Position numbers and translations under genes: made by a program. A stretch of 64,000 nucleotides of DNA, from IMG/VR virus record IMGVR_UViG_3300047548_001509, positions 18,783-82,782 of that record; one strand, written 5' to 3'. The stretch is from a virus. Positions 2,479-62,042 of this stretch are shown here, piece by piece (the first letter of the stretch is position 1; every line of letters starts with the position of its first letter). The notes below the pieces were generated by a model that was not told the origin of the DNA, ran no database searches, and saw only the letters and a program-made list of their open reading frames with translations.

Positions 2479-2487
2479 TATTACACC

Positions 2488-2495
2488 TATTTATA
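2488..2495 (-). promoter_or_regulatory. T4-type late promoter (TATAAATA) for portal
   Basis: A perfect T4 late promoter octamer on the minus strand, 10 nt upstream of the portal ATG, in the short gap between the gp15-like gene and the portal gene. Confidence 0.7.
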
Positions 2496-2497
2496 AT

Positions 2498-7339: not shown

Positions 7340-7364
7340 ATCTAATTATATAATGTTTTGAATT

Positions 7365-21861: not shown

Positions 21862-21865
21862 TACT

Positions 21866-22072
21866 ATGACAAAAACTGACCAGCGTTTAATTTGGGAAGC
21901 TTATGTGGATTCATTTGAAGATAGTGAACTTCAAATGGGTATTGAAGTAGAAATGGAGCATACAGATGACCCAAAGATTGCTGAGCAGATTGCCAGGGAC
22001 CACCTTGCTGAAAATCCAACGTATTATACAGACTTAAAAAGATGTGAAGATCAAACAGGAAAAAAATTATGA
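21866..22072 (+). CDS. Small DUF5661-like protein
   Basis: 68 residues. The pattern ELQMGIEVEMEHTDDPKIA then ARDHLAENPTYYTDLKRCE matches the small DUF5661-type proteins found in phages and bacteria (GieVE.EHt.d...A..IA.DHL.E.P.YY..L). RLIWEAY near the start contains I-x-E. It sits between the two PVC-type genes and overlaps the DUF1501 start by 4 nt (ATGA), so the three are one operon. Function unknown. Confidence 0.6.
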   Translation: MTKTDQRLIWEAYVDSFEDSELQMGIEVEMEHTDDPKIAEQIARDHLAENPTYYTDLKRCEDQTGKKL

Positions 22073-23304
22073 ATAAACTAAATCGTCGCGAATTCGTTCT
22101 CAACCTAGCTGCTACAGGGTTGGGTGTTACTGTATTACCAACCATTAATGCTGCTCCAGCTCCACGAAAAGCTGAGCATATCATTTACTTGTTTATGAAT
22201 GGTGGTATGTCACATCTTGATACATTTGACCCAAAAACAAATGAAGAAGTAAAAGGGGAATTTAATACCATTAAAACTAATACTGGAGCTGATATTAGCG
22301 AACATCTACCTAATTTAGCTAAACTTGGAGATAAAATGGCTATTATCCGCTCAATGATGGTTACAACTGGAGCTCACGAACAAGCTCAATATCTTCAGAG
22401 AACATCTTATAAAAAGATTGGTACAATTGTTCATCCAAATTTAGGTGCATGGATGTGTAATGTTCAAGATGATAAGAAACTTCGTGCTATTCCACAGAAT
22501 GTTCTTATTTCAGGACCAGCAGATCATCCAGGTTCAGGTTGGATGCCAAAGAAATATGCACCGGTTCCGATCCAAGATCCAATGAGAGGTCTTGAAAATT
22601 CTGCTTTGAAAAATAAAGACGAGTTTTCAAAGCGTATTCAAATCCTCCAACAACTTGAAAAAGATTCTCTTAAAGCTATAAACCCACAACAAAAAGCTTA
22701 CAGTGAGTTTTATGATCAAACAATTAGACTGCTCAATTCAACTGAGTTAGATGTATTTGATCTTTCAAAAGAAACAAAAGAAACACGCGATAAATATGGT
22801 GATAACCGTTTTGGTCAAGGTTGTTGTCTTGCAAAACGCCTTATTGAAAAAGGTGGTGTGAAGTTTATTGAAGTTCAAGATGGTGGATGGGATACACACG
22901 TTAATAACTTTGAAGCTCTTGAAACAAAACTTAAGATTTTTGATACAGCTATTTCTGCTCTTGTTGAAGATCTCAAGCAGTCTGGTTTGCTTGAAAAAAC
23001 ATTAATTGTCATTTCAACAGACTTTGGTCGTACTCCTGTAATTAATGTTAATAATGGTCGTGACCACCACCCGGGTTGCTTTAGCGGATGTTTGATTGGT
23101 GCTGGAATTAAAGGAGGCCAAGTACATGGGACAACTGACGAAAAGGGAATGAAAGTTGTTGATAAGGTTGTGTCTGTGCAGGATTTTAATGCAACTATTG
23201 CAGCTGCAGCAAATATACCTGTTGATCTTGTTCTTCACTCACCAGAAGGAAGACCATTTAAAGTCGCCGATAAAGGTGTACCAATTCAAAGTCTTCTAGT
23301 TTAA
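22069..23304 (+). CDS. Exported DUF1501 protein (Tat signal)
   Basis: 411 residues. Starts MNKLNRREFVLNLAATG with twin arginines and a hydrophobic stretch ending AAPAP, a Tat export signal. DUF1501 features: HIIYLFMNGGMSHLDTFDPK near 38-57, GPADHPGSGWMP, FGQGCCLAKRLIEKGGVKF, QDGGWDTHVNN near 275, and STDFGRTPVIN with GRDHHPG. DUF1501 lies in the alkaline-phosphatase/sulphatase superfamily and almost always accompanies DUF1549/1553 genes in PVC bacteria. Full length for the family. The role in a phage is not known; the protein would fold in the cytoplasm and go to the periplasm. Confidence 0.87.
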   Translation: MNKLNRREFVLNLAATGLGVTVLPTINAAPAPRKAEHIIYLFMNGGMSHLDTFDPKTNEEVKGEFNTIKTNTGADISEHLPNLAKLGDKMAIIRSMMVTTGAHEQAQYLQRTSYKKIGTIVHPNLGAWMCNVQDDKKLRAIPQNVLISGPADHPGSGWMPKKYAPVPIQDPMRGLENSALKNKDEFSKRIQILQQLEKDSLKAINPQQKAYSEFYDQTIRLLNSTELDVFDLSKETKETRDKYGDNRFGQGCCLAKRLIEKGGVKFIEVQDGGWDTHVNNFEALETKLKIFDTAISALVEDLKQSGLLEKTLIVISTDFGRTPVINVNNGRDHHPGCFSGCLIGAGIKGGQVHGTTDEKGMKVVDKVVSVQDFNATIAAAANIPVDLVLHSPEGRPFKVADKGVPIQSLLV

Positions 23305-24673: not shown

Positions 24674-25294
24674 TTACAATACGCCTCGGTTATTCTGAGC
24701 AAATTCAACGAATTTATAAAATTCAGCCCGGGATGCTCCATCAATATCATGGAAAGCTCCAGACACTCTCGCTGTGCGCATGCAACTAGGGTGCTTAATT
24801 CCGCGTGCTGAACAACATGTATGATTTGCTTCAATCATTACTGCAACACCTTTATTATCAATGCATACACTATCGATAGTCTCGTGGATCTTCTTAGTAA
24901 GAGATTCTTGAACTGATGGTCTACGACTAATGTGGTCAACAATTCTATTTAATTTTGACAATCCTATCATTTTGCCATCTCGAGATGGGATATAAGCAAC
25001 ATGCGCATACCCAGAAAAGGTAAGCAGATGATGTGCGCAAAGTGATACTAATGGAATATTAGTTTGACATACCATTCCATCGTATTGTTCATCATTTGCA
25101 AAAGATGTAATAGTTGGTGGATCAGTAAAAAGGCCTTTCATAAGGTCATTAATCCAGGATTTAATAACTCTTTTAGGTGTGTCCTGCATATGTGGATCAG
25201 TATCCCAATTAATATTGAGAGACTTAAGTACATGACCCATATGGGTAGTAGCATCTATAATATTTTGTTCTGTAATATTAATTTTATCGATCAT
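24674..25294 (-). CDS. folE: GTP cyclohydrolase I
   Basis: 206 residues. Catalyses GTP to 7,8-dihydroneopterin triphosphate, first step to folate or 7-deazaguanines. Visible motifs: QTNIPLVSLCAHHLLTFSG with zinc ligands Cys-x2-His near 88-91, GLSKLNRIVDHISRRPSVQE, and VAVMIEANHTCCSARGIK with the second zinc Cys. Complete. With queD, queE and queC it supplies preQ0. Promoter TTGACA-N16-TAATAT ends 6 nt before the ATG. Confidence 0.95.
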   Translation of the reverse strand: MIDKINITEQNIIDATTHMGHVLKSLNINWDTDPHMQDTPKRVIKSWINDLMKGLFTDPPTITSFANDEQYDGMVCQTNIPLVSLCAHHLLTFSGYAHVAYIPSRDGKMIGLSKLNRIVDHISRRPSVQESLTKKIHETIDSVCIDNKGVAVMIEANHTCCSARGIKHPSCMRTARVSGAFHDIDGASRAEFYKFVEFAQNNRGVL

Positions 25295-25328
25295 AATATA
25301 ATATTATCTACTTTCCCATAGATGTCAA
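25295..25328 (-). promoter_or_regulatory. Sigma70-type promoter of folE, leaderless geometry
   Basis: Minus strand: TTGACA at 25328-25323, 16-nt spacer, TAATAT at 25306-25301, then 6 nt to the ATG. Transcription should begin at or next to the start codon. No Shine-Dalgarno sequence. Confidence 0.65.
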
Positions 25329-25580
25329 ATATTTTTTTGATTGCCAATATATTATAATTGTTTCAGCTCCGAGTTCTTTTTAGGTTACACTCTGTATCTC
25401 TAATAGTCGATAAGTTAAACATATTCATGTACTTTCGACAGGTTGTGTTATGTTGTCTTAGATGGGAGTTTGTTACCTCTTTAAATTCTCTGTTACATAT
25501 TAAGCATCATCTCATCTACATATTTACAGCGAATGGGTTATGATATCCACAACTAATACTAGTAATATTCTACTTTACTT
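25329..25580 (+). ncRNA. Gene-free stretch with two stem-loops; possible small RNA
   Basis: About 250 nt with no convincing gene (the open frame at 25358-25543 has no start signal and implausible composition). A TATAAT at about 25351 could drive a plus-strand RNA. Stem 1 spans 25406-25439: GTCGA/TCGAC, AAGT/ACTT and ACAT/ATGT stacked around an ATTC loop. Stem 2 pairs AGATGGGA (25460-25467) with TCTCATCT (25510-25517). Strand and existence of the RNA are inference. Confidence 0.28.
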
Positions 25581-25588
25581 ACTAAATA
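25581..25588 (+). promoter_or_regulatory. Late-type promoter (ACTAAATA)
   Basis: ACTAAATA 5 nt upstream of the ATG at 25594, same form as the box before 14844. Confidence 0.45.
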
Positions 25589-25593
25589 TCCAT

Positions 25594-25947
25594 ATGGAAA
25601 AATTCAAACAACTTTTTGAAGAAGCACAAAGATTAAATGAGAGTGATCAGATTTTTGGAAATGTTAAATTAATTCCAACACCGAATGATGTTGTTAAAGG
25701 CATTGGTAATTTATTAGCAAAACCTTTTAAAAAGGGCGTCGCACAACAATCTACACAACAATCTACTAACCAATTACAGCAATCTACTGACCAACAACAA
25801 TCTCCAGTTCAAAGAAAAGAAAAAGGGACGATACTATATTTTAGAATGTATGATTCTAAATTACCAAACCCTCTTTTTATTAGATATGATAGGAGGACAA
25901 AGCATATAACCTTCATTTCAGAAAATGATTTCAAAAAAATGGTTTGA
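25594..25947 (+). CDS. Leader-bearing small protein, possible packaged protein
   Basis: 117 residues. The open frame extends upstream to 25540 but the ATG at 25594 gives the leader MEKFKQLFEEAQRLNES, with L-F-E and L-N-E sites, and follows a late-type promoter. A Gln/Ser/Thr-rich linker (QQSTQQSTNQLQQSTDQQQ) separates it from a C-terminal domain (ILYFRMYDSKLPNPLFIRYD). Family not recognised. Confidence 0.6.
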   Translation: MEKFKQLFEEAQRLNESDQIFGNVKLIPTPNDVVKGIGNLLAKPFKKGVAQQSTQQSTNQLQQSTDQQQSPVQRKEKGTILYFRMYDSKLPNPLFIRYDRRTKHITFISENDFKKMV

Positions 25948-25971
25948 TTTATTTAGGAAGTATCTCATAAT
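25944..25971 (+). promoter_or_regulatory. Sigma70-type promoter of queD-like gene, leaderless geometry
   Basis: TTGATT at 25944-25949, 16-nt spacer, CATAAT at 25966-25971, then 6 nt to the ATG at 25978. Confidence 0.5.
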
Positions 25972-25977
25972 TAATTT

Positions 25978-26655
25978 ATGAGTAATTTTATTTCAACAAA
26001 AGTTATTGAATTGGGTTCAAGTGCGTTCAGACAGTGGAGAGCAACACACAGCCATTGCCAATATATTCATGGGTACCAGCTTAAAGCAAAATTTTGGTTT
26101 ACATGTAGTAAATTAGATGAAAAGCACTGGTGTGCTGATTTTGGAGGTCTTAAGCCGTTAAAGGAAGCTTTGCAAGCAGTATTTGATCATAAATTACTCG
26201 TAGCAGCTGATGATCCCTGCCTTGAAGATTTTAAATCTCTCGAACAAAAAGGTGTTGTAAAATTGTCAATTTTTCCAAAGGGTGTTGGTATTGAAAGAGC
26301 TGCTGAATATTGTTTTGAAGTTGCACAAGATTTTATTCACCAGACGTATGGACCAAGAGTTCAAGTTAGTAGAGTAGAAGTATTTGAACACGAAGATAAT
26401 TCAGCTGTTTATGAATCTTGTGCAAAATATGAAAAATATTTATCTAAAGTACAATCAATGATTGCAGAAGCAATTTCACAACCAGATGAAAACCCACAGG
26501 ATGGAAGTGTAACCGGTACTATGACCTCAATTGAAGAGTCTCCCTGGGGTACACCGGTTACAGAATTAACAGTCACACCACATCAGCCAGCACAGATCTC
26601 ACAACAAGTAACCTCTGGTCGTGGTAATTGGTTTGCTGGTACTTCTTGGCAATAA
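25978..26655 (+). CDS. QueD-like protein with altered zinc site and long C-terminal tail
   Basis: 225 residues against about 120-150 for QueD. RQWRATHSHCQYIHGYQLK near 19-37 keeps Cys-x3-His-Gly but has Tyr where the usual HGH motif has its second zinc-binding His. CADFGGLKPLKEAL and ERAAEYCFEVA match the family's middle and end; VEVFEHEDNSAVYE holds the C-terminal Glu region. Residues 165-225 are a Pro/Thr/Ser tail ending GTSWQ. This divergent form occurs in marine phages; it may have a different pterin substrate. The bona fide QueD is at 28296-28904. Confidence 0.72.
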   Translation: MSNFISTKVIELGSSAFRQWRATHSHCQYIHGYQLKAKFWFTCSKLDEKHWCADFGGLKPLKEALQAVFDHKLLVAADDPCLEDFKSLEQKGVVKLSIFPKGVGIERAAEYCFEVAQDFIHQTYGPRVQVSRVEVFEHEDNSAVYESCAKYEKYLSKVQSMIAEAISQPDENPQDGSVTGTMTSIEESPWGTPVTELTVTPHQPAQISQQVTSGRGNWFAGTSWQ

Positions 26656-27417
26656 TTATTTTGCTAAATCAAGTACTTCAACAATGTGTTTGAGAATCTC
26701 AGAACGTACGATGTCTTCTGTAGTGAACTTTGCACAGAAGATATCATGTTCTTTTGATAGATCAGTATTAAAAGCATTAAACACCCTGCGAAATCCAGAA
26801 TCTTTAATATCTGATTGATTACAATCTCCTATTACGGCATACTTAGATTTATTACCAAAACGGGTTAGTATAGTTGCACATTCCTTAGGTGAGAAATTTT
26901 GTGATTCGTCCACAATTACAAATGTTCTATGAAATGTTAGACCACGGCAGAAATTGACAGGTATACCTTTAATTAACCCGTGTTGAAAAAGATACTCCCC
27001 TGTACCATTTCTAGTTAGTTCATTTACTTTATCAATAAGAGGCATAGACCAAGGAAGAAATTTATCATCAATTTCACCAGGAAGTGAACCCATTTTATTA
27101 TCAGCAGACTCAGCAATAGAACGAATATAAAAGATTTTATCAACATACCGCTCTTTAAGTGCTGTTAACGCGGCATAAACAGCTAGAAAAGTTTTGCCAC
27201 TGCCTGCAGGACCATCAATTAAAACCATTTTTGTTTTGTTTCTTTGCATCAAATGTAAAACATCCAGATGTCTCTGAGACAATTCAAAAGGTTGGTATAT
27301 CTCAAAATTTGTTACCGCATTTTGATTTAATGATGTGTATATGTCATCAACTAATATATCGTTAGTTTTTGACCCGTCAACTTTATGCGATTTACGTATC
27401 GCTTTTTTAGTAGACAT
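26656..27417 (-). CDS. phoH: PhoH-like P-loop ATPase
   Basis: 253 residues. Walker A IDGPAGSGKTFLAVY near 65-79, KIFYIRSIAES, LPGEIDDKFLPWSMP, and Walker B VIVDESQNFSPKE near 165, then GDCNQSDIKDSGFRR. PhoH proteins are very common in marine phages; proposed to be RNA helicase- or nuclease-associated ATPases. Its stop abuts the stop of the convergent queD-like gene with no space. Confidence 0.9.
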   Translation of the reverse strand: MSTKKAIRKSHKVDGSKTNDILVDDIYTSLNQNAVTNFEIYQPFELSQRHLDVLHLMQRNKTKMVLIDGPAGSGKTFLAVYAALTALKERYVDKIFYIRSIAESADNKMGSLPGEIDDKFLPWSMPLIDKVNELTRNGTGEYLFQHGLIKGIPVNFCRGLTFHRTFVIVDESQNFSPKECATILTRFGNKSKYAVIGDCNQSDIKDSGFRRVFNAFNTDLSKEHDIFCAKFTTEDIVRSEILKHIVEVLDLAK

Positions 27418-27434
27418 ATAAGCTATTTAATAAT

Positions 27435-27462
27435 TTGACATTAGGAAACAGGTGATTATAAT
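27435..27462 (+). promoter_or_regulatory. Sigma70-type promoter of queE, leaderless geometry
   Basis: TTGACA at 27435-27440, 16-nt spacer, perfect TATAAT at 27457-27462, then 5 nt to the ATG at 27468. The clearest case of this class. Confidence 0.75.
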
Positions 27463-27467
27463 TAGTA

Positions 27468-28277
27468 ATGATTGATATTGATAAAGAGTTTTTAACTGTC
27501 GGTGGTGTAGGTGGGGAACCAGAAATTTTTGCAACACTCGAGGGTGAAGGCAGATATGTTGGACAACCTTCAATTTTTATTCGAATGGCTACATGTAATT
27601 TAACATGTAGTGCGTGGGCTTCTCCAGACTCTCCAAATGGATGTGATTCATATGTATCATGGTCGGTTAAGAACAAAATTACATTTCGTAAGGCATTTGA
27701 AATCTTAGAAGGGTTGAATGCAATTCAACGACTAAAAGATGGTTGGATTCTAAAACTCACAGGCGGTGAACCATTTATTAGACAAAAAGAGCTTTATAAA
27801 TTTGTTCAAGCTCTTGGTCAGGAATATGGAATAAACAAACCAAAAATTGATTTTGAGACAAATGGTACAATAATGCCAGATTGTAAAATGTGGGGATGGG
27901 ATGATTCCAATAGTTTCTCAAACCTATGGATTGATAATAATGTAACGTTTACTACTTCACCAAAACTATCTACAAATGGTGATCCTGAAGAAAAGACATA
28001 CAAGCCAGAAGTACTTAGATTTTTGAAGAAAAATTATGCATGTTTTAAATTCGTGATTACAGGGGAAAGAGACATTGAAGAAATTTGGAGAAAATACGTA
28101 GAAGATAAAGAAGGGATTAATATCACAAGGGATATGATTTGGTTTATGCCTTGTTGTGGTTCTCGACAGGAGCATATTGAAAGAGCAACTACAGTAGCAG
28201 AGTATGCGAAATCAATGGGTGTTAACTTTTCTCCAAGGTTGCATTTGATACTCTGGGACAAAAGTCTAAGAGTGTAA
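27468..28277 (+). CDS. queE: 7-carboxy-7-deazaguanine synthase, radical SAM
   Basis: 269 residues. Converts 6-carboxytetrahydropterin to CDG. LEGEGRYVGQPSIFIRMATC precedes the cluster-binding cysteines: CNLTC then, after an 11-residue insertion, GCDSYVSW. Ordinary QueE has C-x3-C-x2-C; the longer spacing resembles inserts in other phage QueE. LTGGEPFIR near 96-104 binds SAM. Followed 18 nt later by queD. Confidence 0.88.
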   Translation: MIDIDKEFLTVGGVGGEPEIFATLEGEGRYVGQPSIFIRMATCNLTCSAWASPDSPNGCDSYVSWSVKNKITFRKAFEILEGLNAIQRLKDGWILKLTGGEPFIRQKELYKFVQALGQEYGINKPKIDFETNGTIMPDCKMWGWDDSNSFSNLWIDNNVTFTTSPKLSTNGDPEEKTYKPEVLRFLKKNYACFKFVITGERDIEEIWRKYVEDKEGINITRDMIWFMPCCGSRQEHIERATTVAEYAKSMGVNFSPRLHLILWDKSLRV

Positions 28278-28295
28278 TTAACATCTAGGTAATTT

Positions 28296-28904
28296 ATGGT
28301 AATAACAAAAAAAATCGATTTCGAGATGGCACATATTGTGCGTAACGCATGGTCTCGAAGATGTTCACATAGTATTCATGGTCATAGCTACACAGCAGAG
28401 ATCATGATTGAATCAAAAGAGTTTGATAGTGGTGGAATGGTTATGGACTTTGGTCTTGTTAAAAAATATATTCACCCATTTATCGATTCCTTTGATCATG
28501 CAACTATGTTGTGGAATCAAGATGACCCAGAGATTATATCATTATTTGAGAACAAATTTGAACGTGTAATTGTATCACCATTTACATCTTCTTGTGAGCA
28601 ACAAGCCCGGTATTTTTATTGGATTATTAATGAAATTATTGAATATGTAAAAGTTATAGACCCACAAGTTTCAAACCGATATGTATCAGTTCGTGGTGTG
28701 AGAATACACGAAACCAAAACAGGAAGTGCATTTTATACGTCACATAATGCAAAATCAGAAGATAACAAATTTAAGTATACAGATGTGTATAATGATATTG
28801 TAAGTATTAAATTTTCTGATGGTATAATTAGTGAATGGCCTAAAGAAATACAACATATCTATCATGATATTTTTGATATAGATCCACAGAAACTAGGAAA
28901 TTGA
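28296..28904 (+). CDS. queD: 6-carboxy-5,6,7,8-tetrahydropterin synthase
   Basis: 202 residues. Zinc and catalytic features are complete: FEMAHIVRNAW, RRCSHSIHGHSYTAEI (Cys-x4-HGH arrangement near 23-32), MVMDFGLVKKYIHPFIDSFDHATML, and VRGVRIHETKTGSAFY with the C-terminal Glu. Makes CPH4 from dihydroneopterin triphosphate, between FolE and QueE. Longer than usual by about 60 residues. Likely on the queE transcript with a weak AGG ribosome site. Confidence 0.87.
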   Translation: MVITKKIDFEMAHIVRNAWSRRCSHSIHGHSYTAEIMIESKEFDSGGMVMDFGLVKKYIHPFIDSFDHATMLWNQDDPEIISLFENKFERVIVSPFTSSCEQQARYFYWIINEIIEYVKVIDPQVSNRYVSVRGVRIHETKTGSAFYTSHNAKSEDNKFKYTDVYNDIVSIKFSDGIISEWPKEIQHIYHDIFDIDPQKLGN

Positions 28905-38639: not shown

Positions 38640-40748
38640 GTGTTTAGAAACTGTTTTTATAACTCTTTTGAAAGAGAAATTGTATTATCGACTTGGGACA
38701 AAGATGGTAAGCGGGTAAAATATAACATACCCTTCGAGCCATATCTATATGTAGAAGATCCAAAAGGTGAATATAAGTCGATATTCAATACTAATTTAGC
38801 AAAGAAAACTTTTCGTAATGGATACGAAAAGAATAAATTTTTACGGGATACTGGAATCAAACGAGTGTTTGGAAATTTCCAACCGGTTCAGCAATTTCTG
38901 ATTGATACATTCTGGAGAGAAAATGAAACTAGAGAATTTTCGCAACACCCATTAAATGTATTGTTTCTAGATATTGAGACAATTTCTGAAACTGACCAAA
39001 CATTCCCAAACCCAGAAGACCCAAATCATCCCATTGTATCACTTGCATGTTACTCAACTCTGTACAAGGAGATGATGTGTTTTGGTATTGGACCATATAC
39101 AGGTAATAAAGCTCATGAGTTCACATATGTGAACTGTAAATCTGAGAAAGAACTTTTCCTGCGATTTATAGAATATCTTCAGAAGGATTACCCTGATCTG
39201 ATGACTGCATACAATGGAGAGATATTTGACTTTCCATATATTATTAATAGATGTACAAGAGTGTGTGGAGAAGATGTAACAAAAAAACTATCACCATTTG
39301 GTAAAATTCGAATCTCTGTTATACCTCCATCAGCTGCTTCCTTTGGTAAAGAGCGAAAGAGATATTTTATTGAAGGTATTGCTGTTGTAGATTACCTGGA
39401 GATTTACAAGAGATTTCAATTATCACCAAGAGACTCATTCAAACTTGATAATATTGCAGAGATTGAACTCGGTGAAAATAAAGTAGATTTTGGGATGATG
39501 TCGCTAACATCATTGATGAAAGAGGACTGGAATAAGTTCATTGAGTATAACGTTCAAGACGTTAATCTTCTTGTTAGATTAGATAATAAGCTTGGGTTTG
39601 TTAACTTACTTAGAATGTTAGCATACACAGGACTTACTAATTTGGATTCTGCAATGGGTTCAATTGTGGTAAATACCGGAGCTTTTGCTATTAAGGCAAA
39701 ACAGCTTGGACAAATATTATCAACATTTGTAAGAAATGATCCAGACAGTACAAACCCCGGGGCATTCGTAGCGGAACCTCAACAAGGATTTCAAGAGCAA
39801 TTCATTTATTTCGATGCAAGTTCCCTATATCCAAATACGATGATTACTCTTAATCTATCCATGGAGACAAAGGTTGGTAGACTTATCGAGAATGATAATA
39901 ATGTGATATTCAGACATGTATCTGGAAAGGAATACCCGATGTCTAGAGAGAAATTTGACATGCTTTGTAATAAAGAGCAGCTTTGTATTTCTAAAAATAA
40001 TATCATTTTTAGTCAAAAAAAGCGTGGAATTATACCAATGTTTCTTGAGGAGAAATATAATGAACGGATCCAAATTAGAAATAAGATGAAGGATCTAAAA
40101 AAGGAGAAACAAAAATATAAAAAGGGAGCTACTCGGATTGATGAAATTGATAGTGAGTTGAAAATTTTAGACGCAAAACAACTATGTATAAAAATTATTA
40201 TTAATTCTGCGTATGGGCTTTTAGGGAATAAGAATGCTGCTGTTGGTGATGATGATCTTGCAGCTGCAATTACTTTAACAGGTCAAGGTGTAATTAAAAA
40301 AGCCGCAAGTATCTACAGCAATTATCTCAAGTTAAATGGAGTTAATATGTCCGACGAACAATGCCGTATCACCGGAGATACTGATAGCTACTCTGGTGAT
40401 ACACTAATTAAAACTAATAAAGGGTTATTTGATGCTGCATCTCTGTGGGATCAATATAATATTTCTAGAAAAGTAGAAACACAAAAATCTGGGCACGAAA
40501 TAATCGATGTTTTTGATTTAGATTTACAGGTTGATACATATGAACATACCACAGGTAATGTTAAAAAGGTCAAGATAAAGAATCTTATTCGACATAAGGT
40601 GAGTAAGCGCAGATTTAAGATTAAAGCCGGTGATAAAGAAATTATAATGACGGAGGACCATGGTTGTATGGTGGTGAGAGATGGTAATTTGATAGAAGTT
40701 AGACCATATGATATTTTAACAACAGATAAAATGGTATTATTGGATTAA
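38640..40748 (+). CDS. 43: DNA polymerase gp43, N-terminal part fused to split-intein N-half
   Basis: 702 residues, GTG start. Family B polymerase: ExoI FLDIETIS near 110, ExoII AYNGEIFDFPYI near 195, ExoIII YNVQDVNLLVRLD near 303, Pol A FDASSLYPNTMI near 393 (Asn in place of the usual Ser), Pol B KIIINSAYGLLGNK near 525, and Pol C ITGDTDS ending at 583. From Ser583 the text changes to an intein (SYSGDTLIKTNKG, then MTEDHGCMV block B) and stops after 120 intein residues. The rest of the polymerase is at 40950-41918. After splicing the exteins join as GDTD-SCVLKM, total about 861 residues. Confidence 0.93.
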   Translation: MFRNCFYNSFEREIVLSTWDKDGKRVKYNIPFEPYLYVEDPKGEYKSIFNTNLAKKTFRNGYEKNKFLRDTGIKRVFGNFQPVQQFLIDTFWRENETREFSQHPLNVLFLDIETISETDQTFPNPEDPNHPIVSLACYSTLYKEMMCFGIGPYTGNKAHEFTYVNCKSEKELFLRFIEYLQKDYPDLMTAYNGEIFDFPYIINRCTRVCGEDVTKKLSPFGKIRISVIPPSAASFGKERKRYFIEGIAVVDYLEIYKRFQLSPRDSFKLDNIAEIELGENKVDFGMMSLTSLMKEDWNKFIEYNVQDVNLLVRLDNKLGFVNLLRMLAYTGLTNLDSAMGSIVVNTGAFAIKAKQLGQILSTFVRNDPDSTNPGAFVAEPQQGFQEQFIYFDASSLYPNTMITLNLSMETKVGRLIENDNNVIFRHVSGKEYPMSREKFDMLCNKEQLCISKNNIIFSQKKRGIIPMFLEEKYNERIQIRNKMKDLKKEKQKYKKGATRIDEIDSELKILDAKQLCIKIIINSAYGLLGNKNAAVGDDDLAAAITLTGQGVIKKAASIYSNYLKLNGVNMSDEQCRITGDTDSYSGDTLIKTNKGLFDAASLWDQYNISRKVETQKSGHEIIDVFDLDLQVDTYEHTTGNVKKVKIKNLIRHKVSKRRFKIKAGDKEIIMTEDHGCMVVRDGNLIEVRPYDILTTDKMVLLD
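40386..40748 (+). other. DNA polymerase split intein, N-half (IntN)
   Basis: 120 residues from Ser1 (codon at 40386) to the TAA. Block A is SYSGDTLI, block B is EIIMTEDHGCMVV. Serine at position 1 and serine as +1 residue, inserted in the GDTDS motif C, the same site and nucleophiles known for split PolB inteins of some T4-like phages. Confidence 0.85.
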
Positions 40749-40956
40749 TTACTGGGCATGGTAATCCTCGGTTTTTTAATGAGAATGAGATATTGAGAGG
40801 TAATGTAACTGTTAAAGAAAAAAGAGAATGGGATAAAATTAGACTAGATAAAATACATGAAATAACAGGATTTGATATATTGGTTGTATGGGAAATAGAT
40901 TATAGATCAAATAGAGACGAAGTAATAAATCAGTGTAAGAAGTTTTTATATGAGTA
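40730..40956 (+). pseudogene. Decayed Vsr-like (EDxHD) homing endonuclease, C-terminal remnant, in pol locus
   Basis: A frame with no start codon runs from 40730 through the gap between the polymerase halves. It contains LITGHGNPRFFNENE, then REWDKIRLDKIHEITG, and FDILVVWEIDYRSN: the HGNP and 'D..R...l...G+.vLvvWE.D' elements of Vsr-like homing endonucleases associated with split inteins. The catalytic N-terminal half is missing. Its stop overlaps the start of the polymerase C-half. Confidence 0.65.
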
Positions 40957-41078
40957 ATGTTTTACTAACAAATGTTGAAGTAGAGGAGTTAACACCTTTT
41001 GAGGATGAGTATGTATATGATATGGAGGTTGATTCAGAAGAACATACATTTTTCGCGAATGATATATTAATACATAAC
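40950..41078 (+). other. DNA polymerase split intein, C-half (IntC)
   Basis: 43 residues starting at its own ATG, ending in IHN before Ser+1; no cysteine in this half. Canonical split position for a class of phage split inteins. Confidence 0.85.
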
Positions 41079-41918
41079 TCCTGTGTGTTGAAAATGAAAG
41101 AGTTGCTAAGTCTAAAAGGTATAAAATTTCAGAATGAAGATGGTACCCTCACAAAGGAAGTATATGAAGAAGCTCAAAAAATTGAACAGTATCTTAATAC
41201 AAAAATCAATGAATGGGCGAGAGCAGAACTAAAATCTAATGACCCTAGATTCTCATTTAAGAGGGAATTAATTGGATCTTGTGGGTTGTTTCTGGCCAAG
41301 AAAAGATACGTTCTTCATATGCTTGATGACGAAGGTATACCATGTAGTAAATACAAGTATACTGGTGTTGAGGTTGTAAGAACAACAATGCCAAAGCAAA
41401 TTAAGCCGTATGCAAAGAAGATTATTGAAACAATGATTTCAACAAAGTCTAGAGCAGAAGTAGATAAAGTTGTTCAGGAGTGTTATGAGATATTCAAAAC
41501 ACTTCCAATTAAAGATCTTGCTTTTGTTATGGGTATTAAAGGATACAGAAAATACACAAGCAGCTTAACAGATTTTAACATCCCTTCTGGTACAGGTACA
41601 CCGGTTCATGTTAAATCAGCGTATTATTATAATAAATTCCTAAAAGAGTTTAACATTGAAAACAAGTACGAAACTATTAATGATGGTGATAAGTGTAGGT
41701 TTTTTTATGTTGAACAACCAAACAAATATAGAATTGAGTCATGTGGTTTTAAGTATGAATGGCCTGAAGAATTAAACGATATTATAAAAATTGATCATGA
41801 GAAAATGTTTAACAAAATTCTATTCTCAATGATTGAAAGATTTTATGATTGTGTATCATGGCAAATAAGAAAACCAAGCGAAAATGTTAGAGTAGAACTA
41901 GTGGATTTGTTTGGTTAA
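40950..41918 (+). CDS. 43: DNA polymerase gp43, C-terminal part with split-intein C-half
   Basis: 322 residues. Residues 1-43 are IntC: block F YDMEVDSEEHTFFANDILIHN ends with His-Asn, followed by the +1 Ser at 41079. Residues 44-322 are the thumb and palm end of a family B polymerase (FSFKRELIGSCGLFLAKKRY, KYKYTGVEVVRTTMPK with the Lys-x-Tyr motif, VELVDLFG C-terminus as a clamp-binding tail). Needs trans-splicing with 38640-40748. Same frame as the N-part. Confidence 0.92.
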   Translation: MSNVLLTNVEVEELTPFEDEYVYDMEVDSEEHTFFANDILIHNSCVLKMKELLSLKGIKFQNEDGTLTKEVYEEAQKIEQYLNTKINEWARAELKSNDPRFSFKRELIGSCGLFLAKKRYVLHMLDDEGIPCSKYKYTGVEVVRTTMPKQIKPYAKKIIETMISTKSRAEVDKVVQECYEIFKTLPIKDLAFVMGIKGYRKYTSSLTDFNIPSGTGTPVHVKSAYYYNKFLKEFNIENKYETINDGDKCRFFYVEQPNKYRIESCGFKYEWPEELNDIIKIDHEKMFNKILFSMIERFYDCVSWQIRKPSENVRVELVDLFG

Positions 41919-42840: not shown

Positions 42841-43056
42841 TCGCAGGACAATCCCTTTATTACTGTAGAGGAGAGTGTCAGAAAAGATACATATAAACAA
42901 CAACTAGCAAACAAAAATGGGTTTTTAGTTATAACAGTTTGGGAGAATGACAATTTAACACACAAACTTAAGGAACTGGTGGAATTAATAGAAAAACACA
43001 TTATAATTAATAATGGAGACAATTCAGAAACTAAAAGAACTACAATACTACTATAG
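42841..43056 (+). pseudogene. Decayed Vsr-like endonuclease remnant in uvsX locus
   Basis: The same frame as the uvsX N-part continues past the TAG for 71 codons: VRKDTYKQQLANKNGFLVIT then VWENDN, again the C-terminal element of Vsr-like nucleases (kD..K...l...GF.V..VWE.D). No start, no catalytic N-terminal half. Overlaps the C-part start by 44 nt. Confidence 0.6.
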
Positions 43057-44440
43057 TATTGAAAAAATTAGTGAAATTACAAATATACATCACCAAACAT
43101 TATTAAAATCTATAAAAAACAACAGGTTTACAAAAAAACTATCACAATTGATTGATATAGCTTTTAACCATCATTGTGATAGTTTTGGGGTTTTTAAGTC
43201 TATTCCAGAAATTATGGATACATCTGCTAAGTATGTAGTAGACACACCTGATGGTTTTCAACTAATAAAGAATTTTATAACCAAAAATGTTCAGCCATGT
43301 GTTCGACTAACAACCTCTAAAGGTGCCATGATTGAATGTTCGTCAAAGCATCTAATTGAATGTATTGGTGATGAAAGATGGGTATTTGCTGGTGATCTTA
43401 GAGAACAACAGGTAGTAACACAACTCGGTCCTGATTTTATTACGCTTTTGGAACCGATTGAAGATCAGGTTGTATATGACTTTGAAGTAGAACACCCGGA
43501 ACATCGCTATTGGAGCGGTGGGTTTAGTAATCACAATACCGGAAAATCGCTCTTTGTTCTCAAGATTCTTGCTAATGCACAGAAACGAGGTTTAATACCC
43601 GTTATATTCGATACTGAAAATGCTATTGATTCTGTTTCTGCAGAAAGAATTGGTCTTGATCCATCGAAAATTAAATACGTTCCTTGTGTTACTATTGAAC
43701 AAACACGAAATGCAATTTTTAAATTTCTCAATTCTGTAAAAGAAAAAGGTTTAGAAGGGAAGTTTATTATTGCTATTGATTCATTAGGTAATTTACAATC
43801 ACAACAAGAGATGTCTCGGATGGAGAAAGAATCTTCTTCAGCAGACATGGGGTCAACAGCACGTGCAATGAAATCATTGATGAAGACCCTTACAAACTTG
43901 TGTGGTCTTACAAAGACAACTGCTATTTGTACAAATCATGTTTATGATGATCCAAGTGCAATGTTTCCGTCATTAGAGAAAAATATGCCTGGTGGTAGAT
44001 CTGTTGTATATCTTCCATCAGTTACTGTTCAGTTAGCCCGCAAACCTGTAAAAGCAGATGGTGGTAAAACTATTGATGATGAATTAGAAGCAGGTCAGAA
44101 AAATTATTCTGGTGTCGTGTTGAGAGCACTTACAGTGAAGAATAGATTTATTAGACAATATCTTGAAGGTGAGATGTACTTATCATTTACATCCGGTCTT
44201 GATAGATACTATGGTCTTTTAGATCTCTGTGTTGGTTTTGGAATCATTTTACAGACAGGATCAACATATACTCTTGCTGATGGAACAAAGCTTGGTTTCT
44301 ATAAGAACTTTCGCAAGAACGTTGATTTGTGGGAAAAAACTCTTCTTCCAGAACTTGAAAAGGTAATTAAAGAAAAGTGGGCTTATTCACAAGGTGAGCA
44401 GATCCCAGACGAAACTGAAGACGTACCAGACGAAGAATAA
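43013..44440 (+). CDS. uvsX: UvsX recombinase C-terminal part with IntC
   Basis: 475 residues. Residues 1-60 resemble a helix-turn-helix (SIEKISEITNIHHQTLLKSI), possibly a relic of the nuclease's DNA-binding region; residues 68-175 are the large IntC (block B-like GAMIECSSKHLIEC, ending YWSGGFSNHN), an internal ATG at 43214 could start it. From Thr176: TGKSLFVLKI completes Walker A; later FDTENAIDS, IAIDSLGNL, and NHVYDDPSAMF. RecA-type strand exchange protein. Spliced product about 366 residues (T4 391). Confidence 0.9.
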   Translation: METIQKLKELQYYYSIEKISEITNIHHQTLLKSIKNNRFTKKLSQLIDIAFNHHCDSFGVFKSIPEIMDTSAKYVVDTPDGFQLIKNFITKNVQPCVRLTTSKGAMIECSSKHLIECIGDERWVFAGDLREQQVVTQLGPDFITLLEPIEDQVVYDFEVEHPEHRYWSGGFSNHNTGKSLFVLKILANAQKRGLIPVIFDTENAIDSVSAERIGLDPSKIKYVPCVTIEQTRNAIFKFLNSVKEKGLEGKFIIAIDSLGNLQSQQEMSRMEKESSSADMGSTARAMKSLMKTLTNLCGLTKTTAICTNHVYDDPSAMFPSLEKNMPGGRSVVYLPSVTVQLARKPVKADGGKTIDDELEAGQKNYSGVVLRALTVKNRFIRQYLEGEMYLSFTSGLDRYYGLLDLCVGFGIILQTGSTYTLADGTKLGFYKNFRKNVDLWEKTLLPELEKVIKEKWAYSQGEQIPDETEDVPDEE

Positions 44441-44502: not shown

Positions 44503-44775
44503 ATGCAAATTTTAAAGATTTTGATGCTGGTTCTAGTGGTTGGTTGTACAACTACAAAACCACAAGGACTTCAAAGTAACTTTGTTTTTTCAAAAGCATA
44601 TGTTGAATTGTCTTATATTTCAAGAGACAAAACTGAGTTACAACAACTATTAACTATTGTGGAATCAAATGCAACACCACAAAAGAAATTTAACGAGTGG
44701 GATTCAAAATTTGATGACAAAGTTAAGGTTGAAGTTTTGAAAAAATATATCAAAGAAGGACACAGAGGATTATGA
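44503..44775 (+). CDS. Small lipoprotein
   Basis: 90 residues. Signal with lipobox LVVGC near 11-15, then a helical soluble part. Late promoter immediately upstream. Overlaps the papain-like gene by 4 nt (ATGA). Could be anchored in the outer or inner membrane and act in lysis or superinfection exclusion; not decided by the sequence. Confidence 0.65.
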   Translation: MQILKILMLVLVVGCTTTKPQGLQSNFVFSKAYVELSYISRDKTELQQLLTIVESNATPQKKFNEWDSKFDDKVKVEVLKKYIKEGHRGL

Positions 44776-45524
44776 GAGTAAAATTAAAAAGTGAAAATTT
44801 CCGGTTTGTAAGACCATCTCTACCAGATAGTAGAGACATTGTTTATAAAACATCAGTGACAGCAGTATCAGAACATTCTCTAGAAGAGTTTAGAGGTCCT
44901 ATATTAGACCAAGGCTCATATGGTGCTTGTACAGGGTTTGGTACTGCAGGAATGTTAAGATCAACGTTTAAGAGACTAACAGATCTCGAAGTTGACTTTA
45001 ATCCATGGTTCATTTATTATAATGCTCGTTCTCGTTCGGGATGGCGTTATAAAGATGAAGGAGCTTACCCGCGAGAAGTGTTTAAGTCGTTGGTTAGGGA
45101 TGGAGTTATTGAAGATTCGAAGTGGAACCCACAAAATAAAATTAAGGAAGATCCTCCTAAATTTAGCGATGCTGATTTAATTAAGTTTAAGTCATATAAG
45201 AGATTTGAGCTTAAAAACATGGAACAGATTCAAAGAGATTTTTCAAATTTCATTAGTGTTGAAAAAATGCCTATTGGAATTGCAATGATCATTAACGAAA
45301 AATCTACAGCTGAAGCTGGTAAATCCGGGGTGTTTAATGTATATAAAAATGATGAGTCTCTAGGGGCCCATTGGGTATATGCAGATAAAGTAAACCAAAA
45401 CGGGATTACATTAGTAAACTCTTGGTCAAAACGCTGGGGTAAAAATGGTACAGCTATTGTACCATGGGATATTTTCCCTCATATTATATTTGAAGCATGG
45501 TCTTTAGATCCTGCGCTTCCTTGA
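44772..45524 (+). CDS. Papain-like (C1A) cysteine peptidase
   Basis: 250 residues. Q47 and C53 in ILDQGSYGACTGFGTAG (oxyanion Gln and nucleophile Cys), His in LGAHWVYADK near 197, and Asn in LVNSWSKRWGKNGTAIVP near 215: the complete papain triad. No signal peptide is evident. Late transcription with the lipoprotein upstream. Targets unknown; might process virion proteins or act on host protein. Papain-like peptidases are rare in phages. Confidence 0.8.
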   Translation: MRVKLKSENFRFVRPSLPDSRDIVYKTSVTAVSEHSLEEFRGPILDQGSYGACTGFGTAGMLRSTFKRLTDLEVDFNPWFIYYNARSRSGWRYKDEGAYPREVFKSLVRDGVIEDSKWNPQNKIKEDPPKFSDADLIKFKSYKRFELKNMEQIQRDFSNFISVEKMPIGIAMIINEKSTAEAGKSGVFNVYKNDESLGAHWVYADKVNQNGITLVNSWSKRWGKNGTAIVPWDIFPHIIFEAWSLDPALP

Positions 45525-45553: not shown

Positions 45554-46282
45554 ATGTTAAATAAGTGTGTATTAGCCTTATCTGGTGGGTTAGACTCTAC
45601 AGTTCTTCTACATAAAGCATGTCAGGAATTTGATAAAGTACATTGTGTGTTTTTTGATTATGGTCAGAGGCATAGAAGAGAACTAGATTGTGCATGTGAT
45701 CAGATTTGCATTGTAAATGCAAAAAATCATAAAGTAGATCTAATTACAATACCTGTACCCCTTCGAACTATTGCACCAATTAGTTCTCTTACTTCAGATG
45801 AAGTTGATACGCCTGACGTGAGAAATATGCTCGGTGAAGCTCAACCAGTATCATATGTCCCATTTCGAAATCTAATATTCCTATCAATGCTTTTGTCTTA
45901 TGCTGAGAGTGTTGATGCAAAAACGGTCTGGTATGGAGCAGCCGGTGTGGATACAGTAAGTGGTTATTGGGACTGCACTACAGACTTTGTTGATAGACTG
46001 AATGGGGTATCAGAACTTAACAGAGAACATCAGATTAAAATTGAAGCTCCTCTTATCAATTTATCAAAGAAAGAAATTATTGAACTTGGTGTCAATTTGA
46101 AGGTAGACTTTAGTAAAACCTGGACATGCTACAGTGGAGAAGATAAAGCCAACCCATATACACCATCTTCTTCTTCAAGACTCAGAGGTTTTGTCGATGC
46201 TGGTTATATTGACCCTATTGAATACGCCCAGGATCTTACAAATTTCTGGGAGAAAAATAACTGTAAGAAGATAGAATATTAA
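45554..46282 (+). CDS. queC: 7-cyano-7-deazaguanine synthase QueC
   Basis: 242 residues. PP-loop ALSGGLDSTVLLHKA near 7-21, FFDYGQRHRRELDCA, YVPFRNLIFLSMLLSYAES, and TWTCYSGEDKANPY. The usual downstream zinc motif (C-x2-C-x2-C) is replaced by TPSSSSRLRGF, so only one of the four Cys ligands remains. Makes preQ0 from CDG. Neighbour of an amidotransferase two genes on. Confidence 0.88.
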   Translation: MLNKCVLALSGGLDSTVLLHKACQEFDKVHCVFFDYGQRHRRELDCACDQICIVNAKNHKVDLITIPVPLRTIAPISSLTSDEVDTPDVRNMLGEAQPVSYVPFRNLIFLSMLLSYAESVDAKTVWYGAAGVDTVSGYWDCTTDFVDRLNGVSELNREHQIKIEAPLINLSKKEIIELGVNLKVDFSKTWTCYSGEDKANPYTPSSSSRLRGFVDAGYIDPIEYAQDLTNFWEKNNCKKIEY

Positions 46283-58205: not shown

Positions 58206-58472
58206 ATGACTGTAAATAAAAAACAGAAAAACTCCCCCAAAATTAAGGTAAATCTTAAAGATGGTGTTGAAGAAATGTCTATAGAGACATTTTCTCGATG
58301 GATGTGTCTAATAGAAGCTATTGATTGTATTCAGAGAAAGTGTGAAGAAGATGAGATTAATATGGAGAAGGTAGATTGGGTTAAACCTATTGCTATTCAA
58401 CACTATATTGATGAGAGATTTCATTCGATGGTACATGATGTTACAGTTGAACATCAATTAGGTAACTTATAA
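58206..58472 (+). CDS. Unidentified 88-residue protein
   Basis: Mixed, acidic; SRWMCLIEAIDCIQRKCEEDE. A TATAAT box ends 5 nt before the ATG without clear -35. Overlaps the convergent glycosyltransferase gene by 6 nt. Confidence 0.5.
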   Translation: MTVNKKQKNSPKIKVNLKDGVEEMSIETFSRWMCLIEAIDCIQRKCEEDEINMEKVDWVKPIAIQHYIDERFHSMVHDVTVEHQLGNL

Positions 58473-59222
58473 ATTTGCTACTTGATTATGCCAGACTATA
58501 TCTTTTAGTTCTTGCTGGAATATAACTCGATCATTACCAAATCCTCTCATTGCTGATAGAATACAACCTGCATCAATTGCAGGTTTTTTCACAGTTTGTG
58601 ATATAAACTGAGCTAGAAGTTTACCAATCATCCCAACACCCAAAACAGCAATATCGAATTCTTTTGTTATAATTTCATCACAAATTTTATTGTACACATC
58701 AATAGGGGTTTGTTTGGAATACGGTAAGGTTCTTCCTGCCGGTACCTGAATAGAGGTGTGTAAACCACCATAACAGATGCCGTAAAATTCACAAAATCGT
58801 CTCTTAGTTAAGTTTTTTATTATAATTGATGAATTGTTGGTAATCCATATGGTAGATTTACCATTTATAAGATTTCCAATTACAGATGGAACAAATAACG
58901 GAAAGATCGCACTAACAGTTGGCTTATTTGATACATCAACATTATATTTCTGTAAATTTGATATAATTTGAGGTTTCCACATGTGGGTATAACCACTATA
59001 ATGTTCTGGAAGACCCAATAAAGAGCAATTATCTACAGAATTTGCAAGCATGTAGCCGAGTTCTTCTTGTTTGTGTAGAATAGATAACTCACCATCACCA
59101 AGACGAATAAAATAACCCGATGGGTTGTCTTTCATGGTTGATAGAATTAAGTTCTTATCGATCTCAATATTACTCCAATCAGCTTTGCTCCATATTTCAT
59201 GACATATACTGTCAGCAGTCAT
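58467..59222 (-). CDS. GT-D fold glycosyltransferase-like protein
   Basis: 251 residues. FIRLGDGELSILHKQEELGY near 38-57 carries the Asp-x-Glu of GT-D (DUF1792-like) enzymes; middle WITNNSSIIIKNLTKRRF; C-terminal IAVLGVGMIGKLLAQFISQ and GCILSAMRGFGNDR. Downstream in the same direction as the three-domain enzyme, overlapping it by 11 nt. A plus-strand terminator hairpin is embedded in its coding sequence. Confidence 0.6.
   Translation of the reverse strand: MTADSICHEIWSKADWSNIEIDKNLILSTMKDNPSGYFIRLGDGELSILHKQEELGYMLANSVDNCSLLGLPEHYSGYTHMWKPQIISNLQKYNVDVSNKPTVSAIFPLFVPSVIGNLINGKSTIWITNNSSIIIKNLTKRRFCEFYGICYGGLHTSIQVPAGRTLPYSKQTPIDVYNKICDEIITKEFDIAVLGVGMIGKLLAQFISQTVKKPAIDAGCILSAMRGFGNDRVIFQQELKDIVWHNQVANL
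58565..58589 (+). terminator. Plus-strand intrinsic terminator inside the convergent gene
   Basis: AACCTGCA/TGCAGGTT, perfect 8-bp stem with a 5-nt loop; its final TT begins a run of six T (58584-58589). It lies 93 nt past the end of the plus-strand gene 58206-58472. Confidence 0.75.
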
Positions 59223-60837
59223 CTAGGTATTTAATTCTACCGCTTGTCACGTAAGGCTGTAATAAACCTCTCTCTAAATCACCATCATGTTCTACTGGTT
59301 GAATAAACGTGCGTGAATCCCAATAATGATGCATTCCAGAATCCTTTTTGCTAAAATGGTCAAACCCAATAATTGTTACATCTATATTATGGTCTAAAAG
59401 CCATCTGATAGTAAGATAACCGGTTGATGGTATTATACCAGCAGCTTTATCTGTTTTACTTGTCTTTTCTTGTAATTCTTTTCTGATATCATTATAATAT
59501 GATCTTGGTACCCGCCATATTTTTGTAGGTGTATATGGTGGATCTGATTCTTCATGAACCATAATGACATTTTTTGGTCTTATTGGGTCTTGCGGTAACG
59601 TTTTTTTGCCAAATGTTACCCATGCAGTGGTTTTAGAGCCAGTACACTTTTCAAGCCCGGTAGTTTTAAAGGTGTTTATTCGTATAACCTCATCAAATTC
59701 GTCTATTTTTGATCCATATTCTTTTTTTAGAATAGAAGGGCCATTTCCAACTACAATATATGTTTTTTTGGAAGTATTAATATTTTCAAACTTTGGAATC
59801 CAATCATTATCATCAGTTTTTATCACGTCCCAGGGTCTGGGCTTACCATGAAAGCAAATAACTTTAGCATTATTAGTTCTTTCTGGTGTAAATTTAAAAC
59901 TGCTTATATCATTAATGGGGAAATAATTAACTTTATTGATATTGACAGCAATAAAATCTTGATCTCCTCTGTATTCGGTAATATGCTTTTGTGGGTCTAA
60001 TATCCACTTACTCCATATTTGTTGTTTAACTTCAGTGGGTACAAACATAAACCCACTCTGAAGTGAATCTCTGCTTGAAAACGGTTTTGGTGTAACTAAT
60101 TCTTTTCCTTGAAACCAATCTGAGGGAATGTCACGTACAACTGTATCAAGATCAATATAGATAAAGGGGAATTTTAAAATATCTGGTCTAAACATTTCCA
60201 TTTTTGACCACCAACCGGGCCAATTATGTTTCATCTCGATAATGTTACCTCTGTTAATATCAAACATGTGAGAATCTGTTAGTACATATACATCTCCATC
60301 AAGTTGTGATATTAACCAATTGACATGATTATGGGTAAATTCACCACCAGTTTTATAAACCAGCACATATTTCTTGTTTGTATAAAAGTTATTTGAATAA
60401 ATTGTAACAGTATGTGGTAAAGATTCTTTGTACCATACATGTTTGTGTGTTTCTAATAGCTCTTTCCACCCTGTAAAGTTATTATACCTATCAGCATCAT
60501 GTATAACGACACATTTACATACTTTCAATAATGTAGGTAAATGTTCATATCTTTTCCATGTAACTTGTTCATTATCCAATAAACATACTGAATATTCTTC
60601 ATTGGGTTCCCATTTGGTCCAATCTTTTATAATATTAAGATTATCACATTGATTAATATACTTACTACCCCACTCTTCACTAGATGATACTATATTAAAT
60701 GTGTTACCTCTGCTCTTTGTTATTGAACGTATTATAGGTGTTGAATAATCTCCACATCCAAGTTCTAAAACCGGACCAGGATTATCAAACAGTGCATCAA
60801 TTAATGCTTTTTGATGAGTTGCGTATGGGTCTACCAT
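59212..60837 (-). CDS. Three-domain enzyme: methyltransferase-like, glycosyltransferase, GT29-like
   Basis: 541 residues. (1) About 1-170: class I methyltransferase-like, GPVLELGCGDYSTPIIRSI near 20 and VCLLDNEQVTW. (2) About 172-345: GT-A transferase of glycosyltransferase 8 appearance, KYVLVYKTGGEFTHNHVNWL, FIYIDLDTVVRDIP (Asp-x-Asp near 235), GDQDFIAVNI. (3) About 352-541: GT29-like, YIVVGNGPSILKKEYG, EFDEVIRINTFKTTG, STGYLTIRWLLDHNIDVTIIGFD, the sialyltransferase-type L and S motifs. One continuous frame; stop and start share a base with the fibre gene. Confidence 0.75.
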   Translation of the reverse strand: MVDPYATHQKALIDALFDNPGPVLELGCGDYSTPIIRSITKSRGNTFNIVSSSEEWGSKYINQCDNLNIIKDWTKWEPNEEYSVCLLDNEQVTWKRYEHLPTLLKVCKCVVIHDADRYNNFTGWKELLETHKHVWYKESLPHTVTIYSNNFYTNKKYVLVYKTGGEFTHNHVNWLISQLDGDVYVLTDSHMFDINRGNIIEMKHNWPGWWSKMEMFRPDILKFPFIYIDLDTVVRDIPSDWFQGKELVTPKPFSSRDSLQSGFMFVPTEVKQQIWSKWILDPQKHITEYRGDQDFIAVNINKVNYFPINDISSFKFTPERTNNAKVICFHGKPRPWDVIKTDDNDWIPKFENINTSKKTYIVVGNGPSILKKEYGSKIDEFDEVIRINTFKTTGLEKCTGSKTTAWVTFGKKTLPQDPIRPKNVIMVHEESDPPYTPTKIWRVPRSYYNDIRKELQEKTSKTDKAAGIIPSTGYLTIRWLLDHNIDVTIIGFDHFSKKDSGMHHYWDSRTFIQPVEHDGDLERGLLQPYVTSGRIKYLDDC

Positions 60838-62042
60838 TAAGGCGTTGGTGTTGGTGTTGGTGTTAAGGCTGGTGTAGGAGTTGCTGTAAGTTCAGGTGAT
60901 GGTGTTGGTTGTGGTGTTTGTGTGAGTGTTGGTGTTGGTGTAAATGTCGGTTGGGGCGTTGGTGTTGGTGTTAAAGATTCAGTTGGTTCAGGTGTTGGTG
61001 TTAATGTAAATGTAGGTGGCGGTGTTTGTGTTAAAGATGGAGATGGGGTTGCTTCGGGAGTTGGAGTTGGTAATCCACATACTGTTGAGAAGGTAACTTC
61101 ACCGTCTACTACATCATAGAGATTGTTATTATTAACAAAATTACCAGTGAAGGTAAGAACTAAAGCTGGTTCTATATAGAGAGGACCTGCTTCTAGAGTT
61201 GTATCATTGTCTGAATAAAGTAGTCTAGTTGTTTCTTGACTACAATCAGTATACACAACATAGGTTCTAATAGGGCTATAGATAGGTCTCGGTGGTATAT
61301 CAGCAGAAACTGTATAATATTGCGTTGGTATAAGACAATTATCACATAAATCTAACTCAATAGGTTCAAATGTGTTTGTTGTATATGTAGGAGCTGTATT
61401 TTTCCCTTCATATACAGGCTGCTTAATATATAAGACGGATTCTTCCCATCCTGATGTAGTTGAGACGGGTGTTGTAAATGAGTAACCAATGTAGTACTCT
61501 GTTGAATCATTTACGCTTAAGTTTGTATTAACTGATGTTAAGTTAATATATGCGGAACTGTTGGTTGGTCTCCAATCAATATAGATTTTTCTGCCTATAT
61601 CACCTAATCTAACCCGCATGATCTGATAATTTTCTGTGCTTCGTAATAATTCAAAAGAATCCGATAGAGCACTTAGTGGAGTAGAGTATATTAGACTAAA
61701 ATCTGGAAATCCTCCGCGTATAACTAGCATATCAGGTTGTATACTGGATAAGGCTATACCATCACGTGTTGATGAATCGGGGTAAATAAAAGAAGAAGCA
61801 AATAACCCAGTTGTATCAAACCCAACACATATTTTTGCACCAGATAAACCAATCTCACCACTATAGCCGACGTCGATACCCGTTCCTGGTGTAGTGAGAG
61901 AGGTCGTATCTGTTAGGAATGTTGTAAAAGCTCCGGAACTATTCTGATTTCCAGACAATAAAAATTGAAAGGACCAAACTATGTCATAATTTGGATTAAA
62001 TTCATGATCAAATATTACTGTTGTGGTCCGTGGAGCTGCCAT
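60837..62042 (-). CDS. Lectin-like virion protein with Pro/Thr-repeat tail
   Basis: 401 residues. Residues 1-200 are a beta sandwich resembling L-type lectin/concanavalin folds ([60 protein letters not shown]). Residues 205-320 beta-rich. Residues 325-401 are a Pro/Thr repeat. Late-type GATAAATA 8 nt upstream. Likely receptor-binding or head decoration protein. Neighbour glycosyltransferases may modify the tail. Confidence 0.65.
60840..61070 (-). repeat. Pro/Thr-repeat coding region (TPTP type)
   Basis: A degenerate GTTGGTGTT-type repeat of about 230 nt encoding runs such as [18 protein letters not shown]; mucin-like stalk of the fibre protein. Confidence 0.8.

Follow-up and report, generated by a model that had tools for sequence, protein, structure and literature searches.

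A phage-encoded fusion of methyltransferase-fold, GT8-like and GT29 domains adjoins a gene for a protein with a threonine-proline tail

The window, a 64,000-nucleotide stretch of viral DNA, comprises bases 18783-82782 of a linear 82,782-base IMG/VR record (IMGVR_UViG_3300047548_001509), which carries a T4-type capsid protein (named from sequence). On the minus strand, an intact open reading frame of 541 codons (59212-60837) starts with ATG and contains no internal stop; its coordinates and length are those given by the sequence-only reading of this DNA, which named no strand. The stop of the gene directly upstream overlaps the start codon of this frame (TAATG), and the start of a GT-D-like glycosyltransferase gene overlaps its end by 11 bases; that reading had overlooked both neighbours. 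Tail-fibre-like genes are located near the operon, which lies near the contig end; the phage genome is therefore probably incomplete. The features considered here are:

59212..60837, minus strand: three-domain fusion gene, 541 aa
60388..60837, minus strand: domain 1, class I methyltransferase fold with seven strands (residues 1-150), from AlphaFold2, Foldseek and stand-alone phage relatives
59788..60387, minus strand: domain 2, GT8/glycogenin-type GT-A glycosyltransferase (residues ~151-350), from PHROG, profile, AlphaFold2 and Foldseek
59215..59778, minus strand: domain 3, GT29 domain (residues 354-541), from Pfam, PDB alignment, AlphaFold2 and Foldseek
59626..59754, minus strand: sialylmotif L (residues 362-404, VVGNGPS...GSKTT), from alignment
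59359..59430, minus strand: sialylmotif S (residues 470-493, PSTGYL...IIGFD), from alignment
59320..59331, minus strand: sialylmotif III (residues 503-506, HHYW), from alignment
59272..59292, minus strand: sialylmotif VS (residues 516-522, EHDGDLE), from alignment, with His517 as predicted catalytic base
60837..62042, minus strand: 401-aa protein, the proposed acceptor, directly upstream of the fusion
60840..61073, minus strand: Thr-Pro repeat tail of the upstream protein (last ~78 residues)
58467..59222, minus strand: GT-D-like glycosyltransferase (PF22882, E 1.2e-7), from Pfam

The fusion is genuine and its domains are well identified. Pfam and PHROG matches, together with AlphaFold2 models compared by Foldseek, bear out the earlier proposal of three enzyme domains in one protein. 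Structures were predicted in two pieces because a full-length alignment misplaced fragments of the middle domain. The model of residues 1-356 (pLDDT 88.4) matches glycogenin/GT8 and class I O-methyltransferases, and hence both the first and the second part adopt enzyme folds. At the borders, the linkers are short, with high pLDDT at the first of them. The three parts hardly differ in base composition (GC 0.32, 0.33 and 0.34), and the domain borders of the fusion revealed no internal start accompanied by a Shine-Dalgarno-like site.

Domain 1 is modelled as a seven-stranded Rossmann fold that Foldseek relates to TrmR and cation-dependent O-methyltransferases. It displays the motifs ELGCGDYST (25-33), LLDNE (86-90) and VVIHDAD (110-116); the first, the glycine-rich loop of motif I, is invariant in the three closest rows. 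Stand-alone phage proteins match the domain at 35-40% identity, and its class is assigned from the fold and the motifs common to these relatives, as no Pfam match was obtained for domain 1 alone. The acid that usually ends strand 2 is replaced by Ser in the query and is non-acidic in its nearest relatives (L022, L025, L160), while the more distant L161 and L162 retain Asp. Activity of domain 1 is therefore uncertain, and judging by this substitution the methyltransferase may be weak or inactive. The substitution and the missing Pfam match would also fit a degenerate scaffold within a protein that acts solely as a two-step glycosyltransferase. Yet motif I, LDNE and HDA are invariant among close relatives, and other, canonical methyltransferases hold the same place in further members of the GT29 clade described below; we regard a mere scaffold as possible though rather unlikely.

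Domain 2 contains the motifs DLD (229-231), GDQ (291-293) and FHGKPRPW (329-336). PHROG 1962 ('glycosyltransferase', the P1 PmgQ/HdmD family) matches residues 158-356 with an E of 8.1e-35, a nine-sequence profile retrieves glycogenin (GT8) from the PDB (E 1.5e-7), and Foldseek returns glycogenin, a bacterial GT8 and LARGE1. Whereas the fold and the DxD motif are shared with glycogenin and LARGE1, identity to these is only ~15%; since the Pfam GT8 model PF01501 failed to match even with E values up to 10 allowed, we refer to the domain as GT8-like and not as a GT8 member. D229 and D231 of the DxD motif and the C-terminal H330 lie in conserved motifs and, by analogy, would serve as metal ligands. 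The P1 protein belongs to the same family (phrog_1962) but is stand-alone. Elsewhere in phages, MptE-like (DUF115) domains take the place of GT29 at 26 of 80 loci, where they are either fused to the GT8-like domain or lie close to it; GT29 itself is near the GT8-like domain in only one of the 80, and in a few loci the latter is apparently fused to a methyltransferase, as seen by eye.

Domain 3 matches PF00777 (Glyco_transf_29) with an E of 1.2e-16 and a score of 61.4 bits, where the cut-off is 23. A PDB sequence search led to ST3Gal1, with all four sialylmotifs aligned, including the ID..D..IR.N stretch in motif L; motifs L, S, III and VS and the catalytic His also align to phage and bacterial GT29 sequences. 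The VS-motif His is the catalytic base in GT29 (PMC10225777). The AlphaFold2 model of this C-terminal domain (pLDDT 90.4) is best matched by ST3Gal1, ST6GalNAc2, ST8Sia3 and ST6Gal1; the top 30 Foldseek hits are all GT29 enzymes (E 1.3e-9, TM 0.67), and significant matches are to GT29 only. The domain thus has the GT-A variant 2 fold of sialyltransferases. In its four sialylmotifs, GT-A variant fold and catalytic His it resembles CAZy GT29 enzymes (ST3Gal1, ST6GalNAc2 and bacterial GT29); unlike these, it is phage-encoded and fused behind methyltransferase and GT8-like domains.

GT29 had been considered uncommon in phages. This holds for annotated collections, where no named isolate phage with GT29 was found and only two uncultured huge-phage records were retrieved, but not for uncultured phages: one degenerate motif-L DNA pattern yielded 109 IMG/VR viral stretches, a lower bound rather than a census because the pattern selects for motif L, in addition to 15 genome stretches. 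All 126 ORFs from this pattern match, at E 2.4e-11 or better, a GT29 profile derived from a separate set of sequences. A single-domain viral scan revealed no close relatives of the GT29 part. Among the papers searched, none dealt with phage GT29; one phage paper names a sialyltransferase without a link to GT29 (PMC12772287). A survey from 2018 reports 23 bacterial GT29 sequences (PMC5811610), and phages are not mentioned in its main text.

In a tree of 109 rows, a quick search in which several long rows are unsure, the query GT29 falls into a clade of 16 rows with an SH-aLRT of 99. Its sole member from a genome contig is a Verrucomicrobiota MAG (L153), whose ORF at 492-3062 unites Methyltransf_24, GT29 and GT9 in a single reading frame that groups with the phage sequences. 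Fusion of GT29 to methyltransferases of types other than that of the query recurs in the clade. An N-terminal methyltransferase of the Methyltransf_11/23/25 type precedes GT29 in L071 and L136, in L116 by similarity to L071, and in the second GT29 gene of L062; L247, like L153, joins GT29 with Methyltransf_24, and L092, outside the clade, carries a C-terminal Methyltransf_23. The partner genes also occur unfused: in L025 and L160 a domain-1 gene is directly followed by a GT8-like gene, and L067 has an uninterrupted run of genes for an FkbM-type methyltransferase, a GT8-like protein, GT29 and a pyruvyl transferase. L136 shows a repeat-tail gene followed by a GT8 gene (PF01501) and then the methyltransferase-GT29 fusion. 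Proteins of ~670 aa with GT29 at the C-terminus were seen in L073, L085, L109 and L143; that of L085 has a GT4-type N-terminus ahead of the GT29 domain, and L143 is an Agrobacterium contig.

The 401-aa protein encoded directly upstream has no relatives that could be found by pattern, tblastn or PHROGs, and is probably a virion protein of the tail-fibre region. Its last 76 residues comprise 27 T, 26 P and 4 S. This Thr-Pro tail is imperfect, lacking the 11-residue run needed by the exact pattern (P[TS])5P, and TRF reported no repeat in it. The enzyme classes of the fusion recur beside repeat-tailed genes in other phages: such a gene lies directly upstream of the GT29 gene in the window, L247, L127, L136, L063 and L251, while L135, L118, L083, L074 and L068 have one close by on the opposite strand. 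TRF detects tandem repeats within 2.5 kb at 10 of 16 query-clade loci versus 4 of 86 other GT29 loci (Fisher p 2.9e-7). The (P[TS])5P DNA pattern occurs in 6 of 13 clade records, none of 37 other GT29 records and one of 50 control phages, chosen as other phages with relatives of the T4-type capsid protein of the record; as the clade includes related phages and its record counts are not fully independent, we also compared lineages, with the pattern present in 4 of 8 versus 0 of 37 (p 4.7e-4). GT29 itself turned up in none of the 50 control phages, and the idea that phages of this capsid type carry it as a rule was rejected accordingly. Because the repeat-tail proteins of different lineages show no homology outside the repeat, a single inherited locus does not account for the association. 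The X of the Pro-X units varies, and the L063 and L251/L062 lineages carry Pro-His instead of Pro-Thr repeats; the Pro-His tails of L063 and L251 make it less likely that Ser/Thr within the repeat is the acceptor throughout. Outside the clade, a Thr-rich tandem repeat of the TTTTIA type is located at 4200-4800 in L092, near its GT29-methyltransferase fusion.

As to the product, a methylated, possibly sialic-acid-like glycan had been suggested. All sialylmotifs are indeed present, but the methyltransferase lacks the usual acid of its SAM site, and a search of the 82.8-kb record for NeuB and a CMP-sugar synthetase found neither. Both were likewise missing from the 13 sampled records of the query clade, although among 50 GT29 records NeuB occurs in 14 and CMP-sugar synthetase in 23. 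For the synthetase, the difference between the clade (0 of 13) and other GT29 records (23 of 37) has a p of 6e-5; since GT29 records are fragments, the absence of a gene is not proof, yet it sets the clade apart from branches that may produce an acidic sugar themselves. With no CMP-sugar genes found in the contig or the sampled clade records, "sialic acid" is unproven, and the donor is likely CMP-Kdo or a CMP-nonulosonate of the host. One such branch is that of the huge phage LR756508, which bears GT29 in four divergent copies near a NeuB-like gene. In this record (L028, 7932-12765), the NeuB-like gene at 8608-9510, named from sequence, lies among the four paralogs, so that an acidic sugar may be made by the phage itself.

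Several other genes of the record deserve mention. A nine-gene glycan cluster on the minus strand (7365-14810) encodes RmlD-like, Methyltransf_24, DUF3431, GT17, two GT11-like, GT2 and galactosyltransferase-like proteins; its ORF 11110-12405 is apparently a second glycosyltransferase-methyltransferase fusion (GT2 by Pfam, the methyltransferase-like part by eye). Genes for preQ0 synthesis at 24674-28904 and 45554-46282 comprise GTP cyclohydrolase I, two PTPS/QueD, a probable QueE and QueC, and in L027 the stretch 7017-7802 resembles, by eye only, phage tRNA-guanine transglycosylase/DpdA. Intein-like interruptions, also noted by eye, affect DNA polymerase, RecA-like and ribonucleotide reductase genes (38640-41918; 43013-44440; L027 13209-16875). 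A phage-borne cysteine protease of the papain family is encoded at 44772-45524 (PF00112, E 8.6e-6). At 20083-23304 the phage holds a pair of DUF1549/DUF1553 and DUF1501 genes, families known mainly from Planctomycetes and Verrucomicrobia; the pair is a possible hint to the host.

We tentatively propose, at a strength somewhat short of probable, and as the function with the best support, that the fusion is a multifunctional enzyme which assembles a short glycan with a cap, the likeliest acceptor being the upstream Thr-Pro-tailed protein, itself probably a virion protein. The GT8-like domain would transfer a hexose from a nucleotide sugar with the help of a DxD-bound metal. Next, an acidic sugar that the host would provide in CMP-activated form, either Kdo or a sialic-acid-like nonulosonate, would be transferred by the GT29 domain, His517 acting as base. 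Provided that it is active, the methyltransferase domain would O-methylate a sugar, and the downstream GT-D-like enzyme would probably attach one further sugar. The order of the domains, from which an assembly line had been suggested, tells nothing about the order of reactions. A viral precedent for such an architecture is A064R of chlorovirus PBCV-1, a single protein whose three domains, two glycosyltransferases and a methyltransferase, act on capsid glycans (PMC7019647); A111/114R unites three glycosyltransferase functions (PMC7826918). In A064R, however, the glycosyltransferase domains are rhamnosyltransferases and the methyltransferase is C-terminal, whereas that of the query is N-terminal with GT8-like and GT29 partners; moreover, the host of PBCV-1 is an alga and that of the query presumably bacterial. 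A role of the query as an A064R-like synthase of virion glycans is suggested by genomic context only.

Alternatively, the fusion could modify a host surface polysaccharide (LPS or capsule), thereby blocking superinfection or changing receptors. Bacterial sialyl- and Kdo-transferases commonly act on cell-surface glycans, the GT8-like domain resembles PmgQ/HdmD of the temperate phage P1 and has relatives in P1-like and other phages, and the cluster at 7365-14810 provides the record with a second large set of glycan genes. We nevertheless judge this function unlikely, as the operon sits behind a repeat-tailed gene and near tail-fibre-like genes, the repeat association recurs in the query clade, and no integrase was noticed on reading the ORF lists. 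Action on phage DNA or a nucleotide to yield a glycosylated base is highly improbable: the preQ0 pathway indicates that the DNA of this phage is probably modified, but the fusion is far from the preQ0 genes (24.7-28.9 and 45.6 kb) and we know of no GT29 or GT8 enzyme that acts on DNA. An assembly artefact joining adjacent genes is just as implausible, for although the three-domain fusion was not met on any other contig seen, the 541-codon frame is intact and even in composition, the linkers are short with high pLDDT at the first border, and the neighbouring genes elsewhere form the same module in order.

Returning to glycosylation of the virion, a broader and more speculative extension, which we regard as possible though rather unlikely, is that this phage clade possesses its own mucin-type system, in which Pro-Thr/Ser stalks on virion proteins are decorated by GT29 enzymes, often fused to methyltransferases, and methylated acidic caps alter charge, stability or recognition. 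If this is true, phages would be decorating the Thr-Pro stalks of their own particles with members of the enzyme family responsible for the sialylation of animal mucins, which would be a novel form of glycosylation of the phage surface. It would also yield compact enzymes with several functions for the transfer of acidic sugars, as well as many phage GT29 sequences that bear on the origin of eukaryotic sialyltransferases. The gene pair of stalk protein and enzyme makes the idea directly testable.
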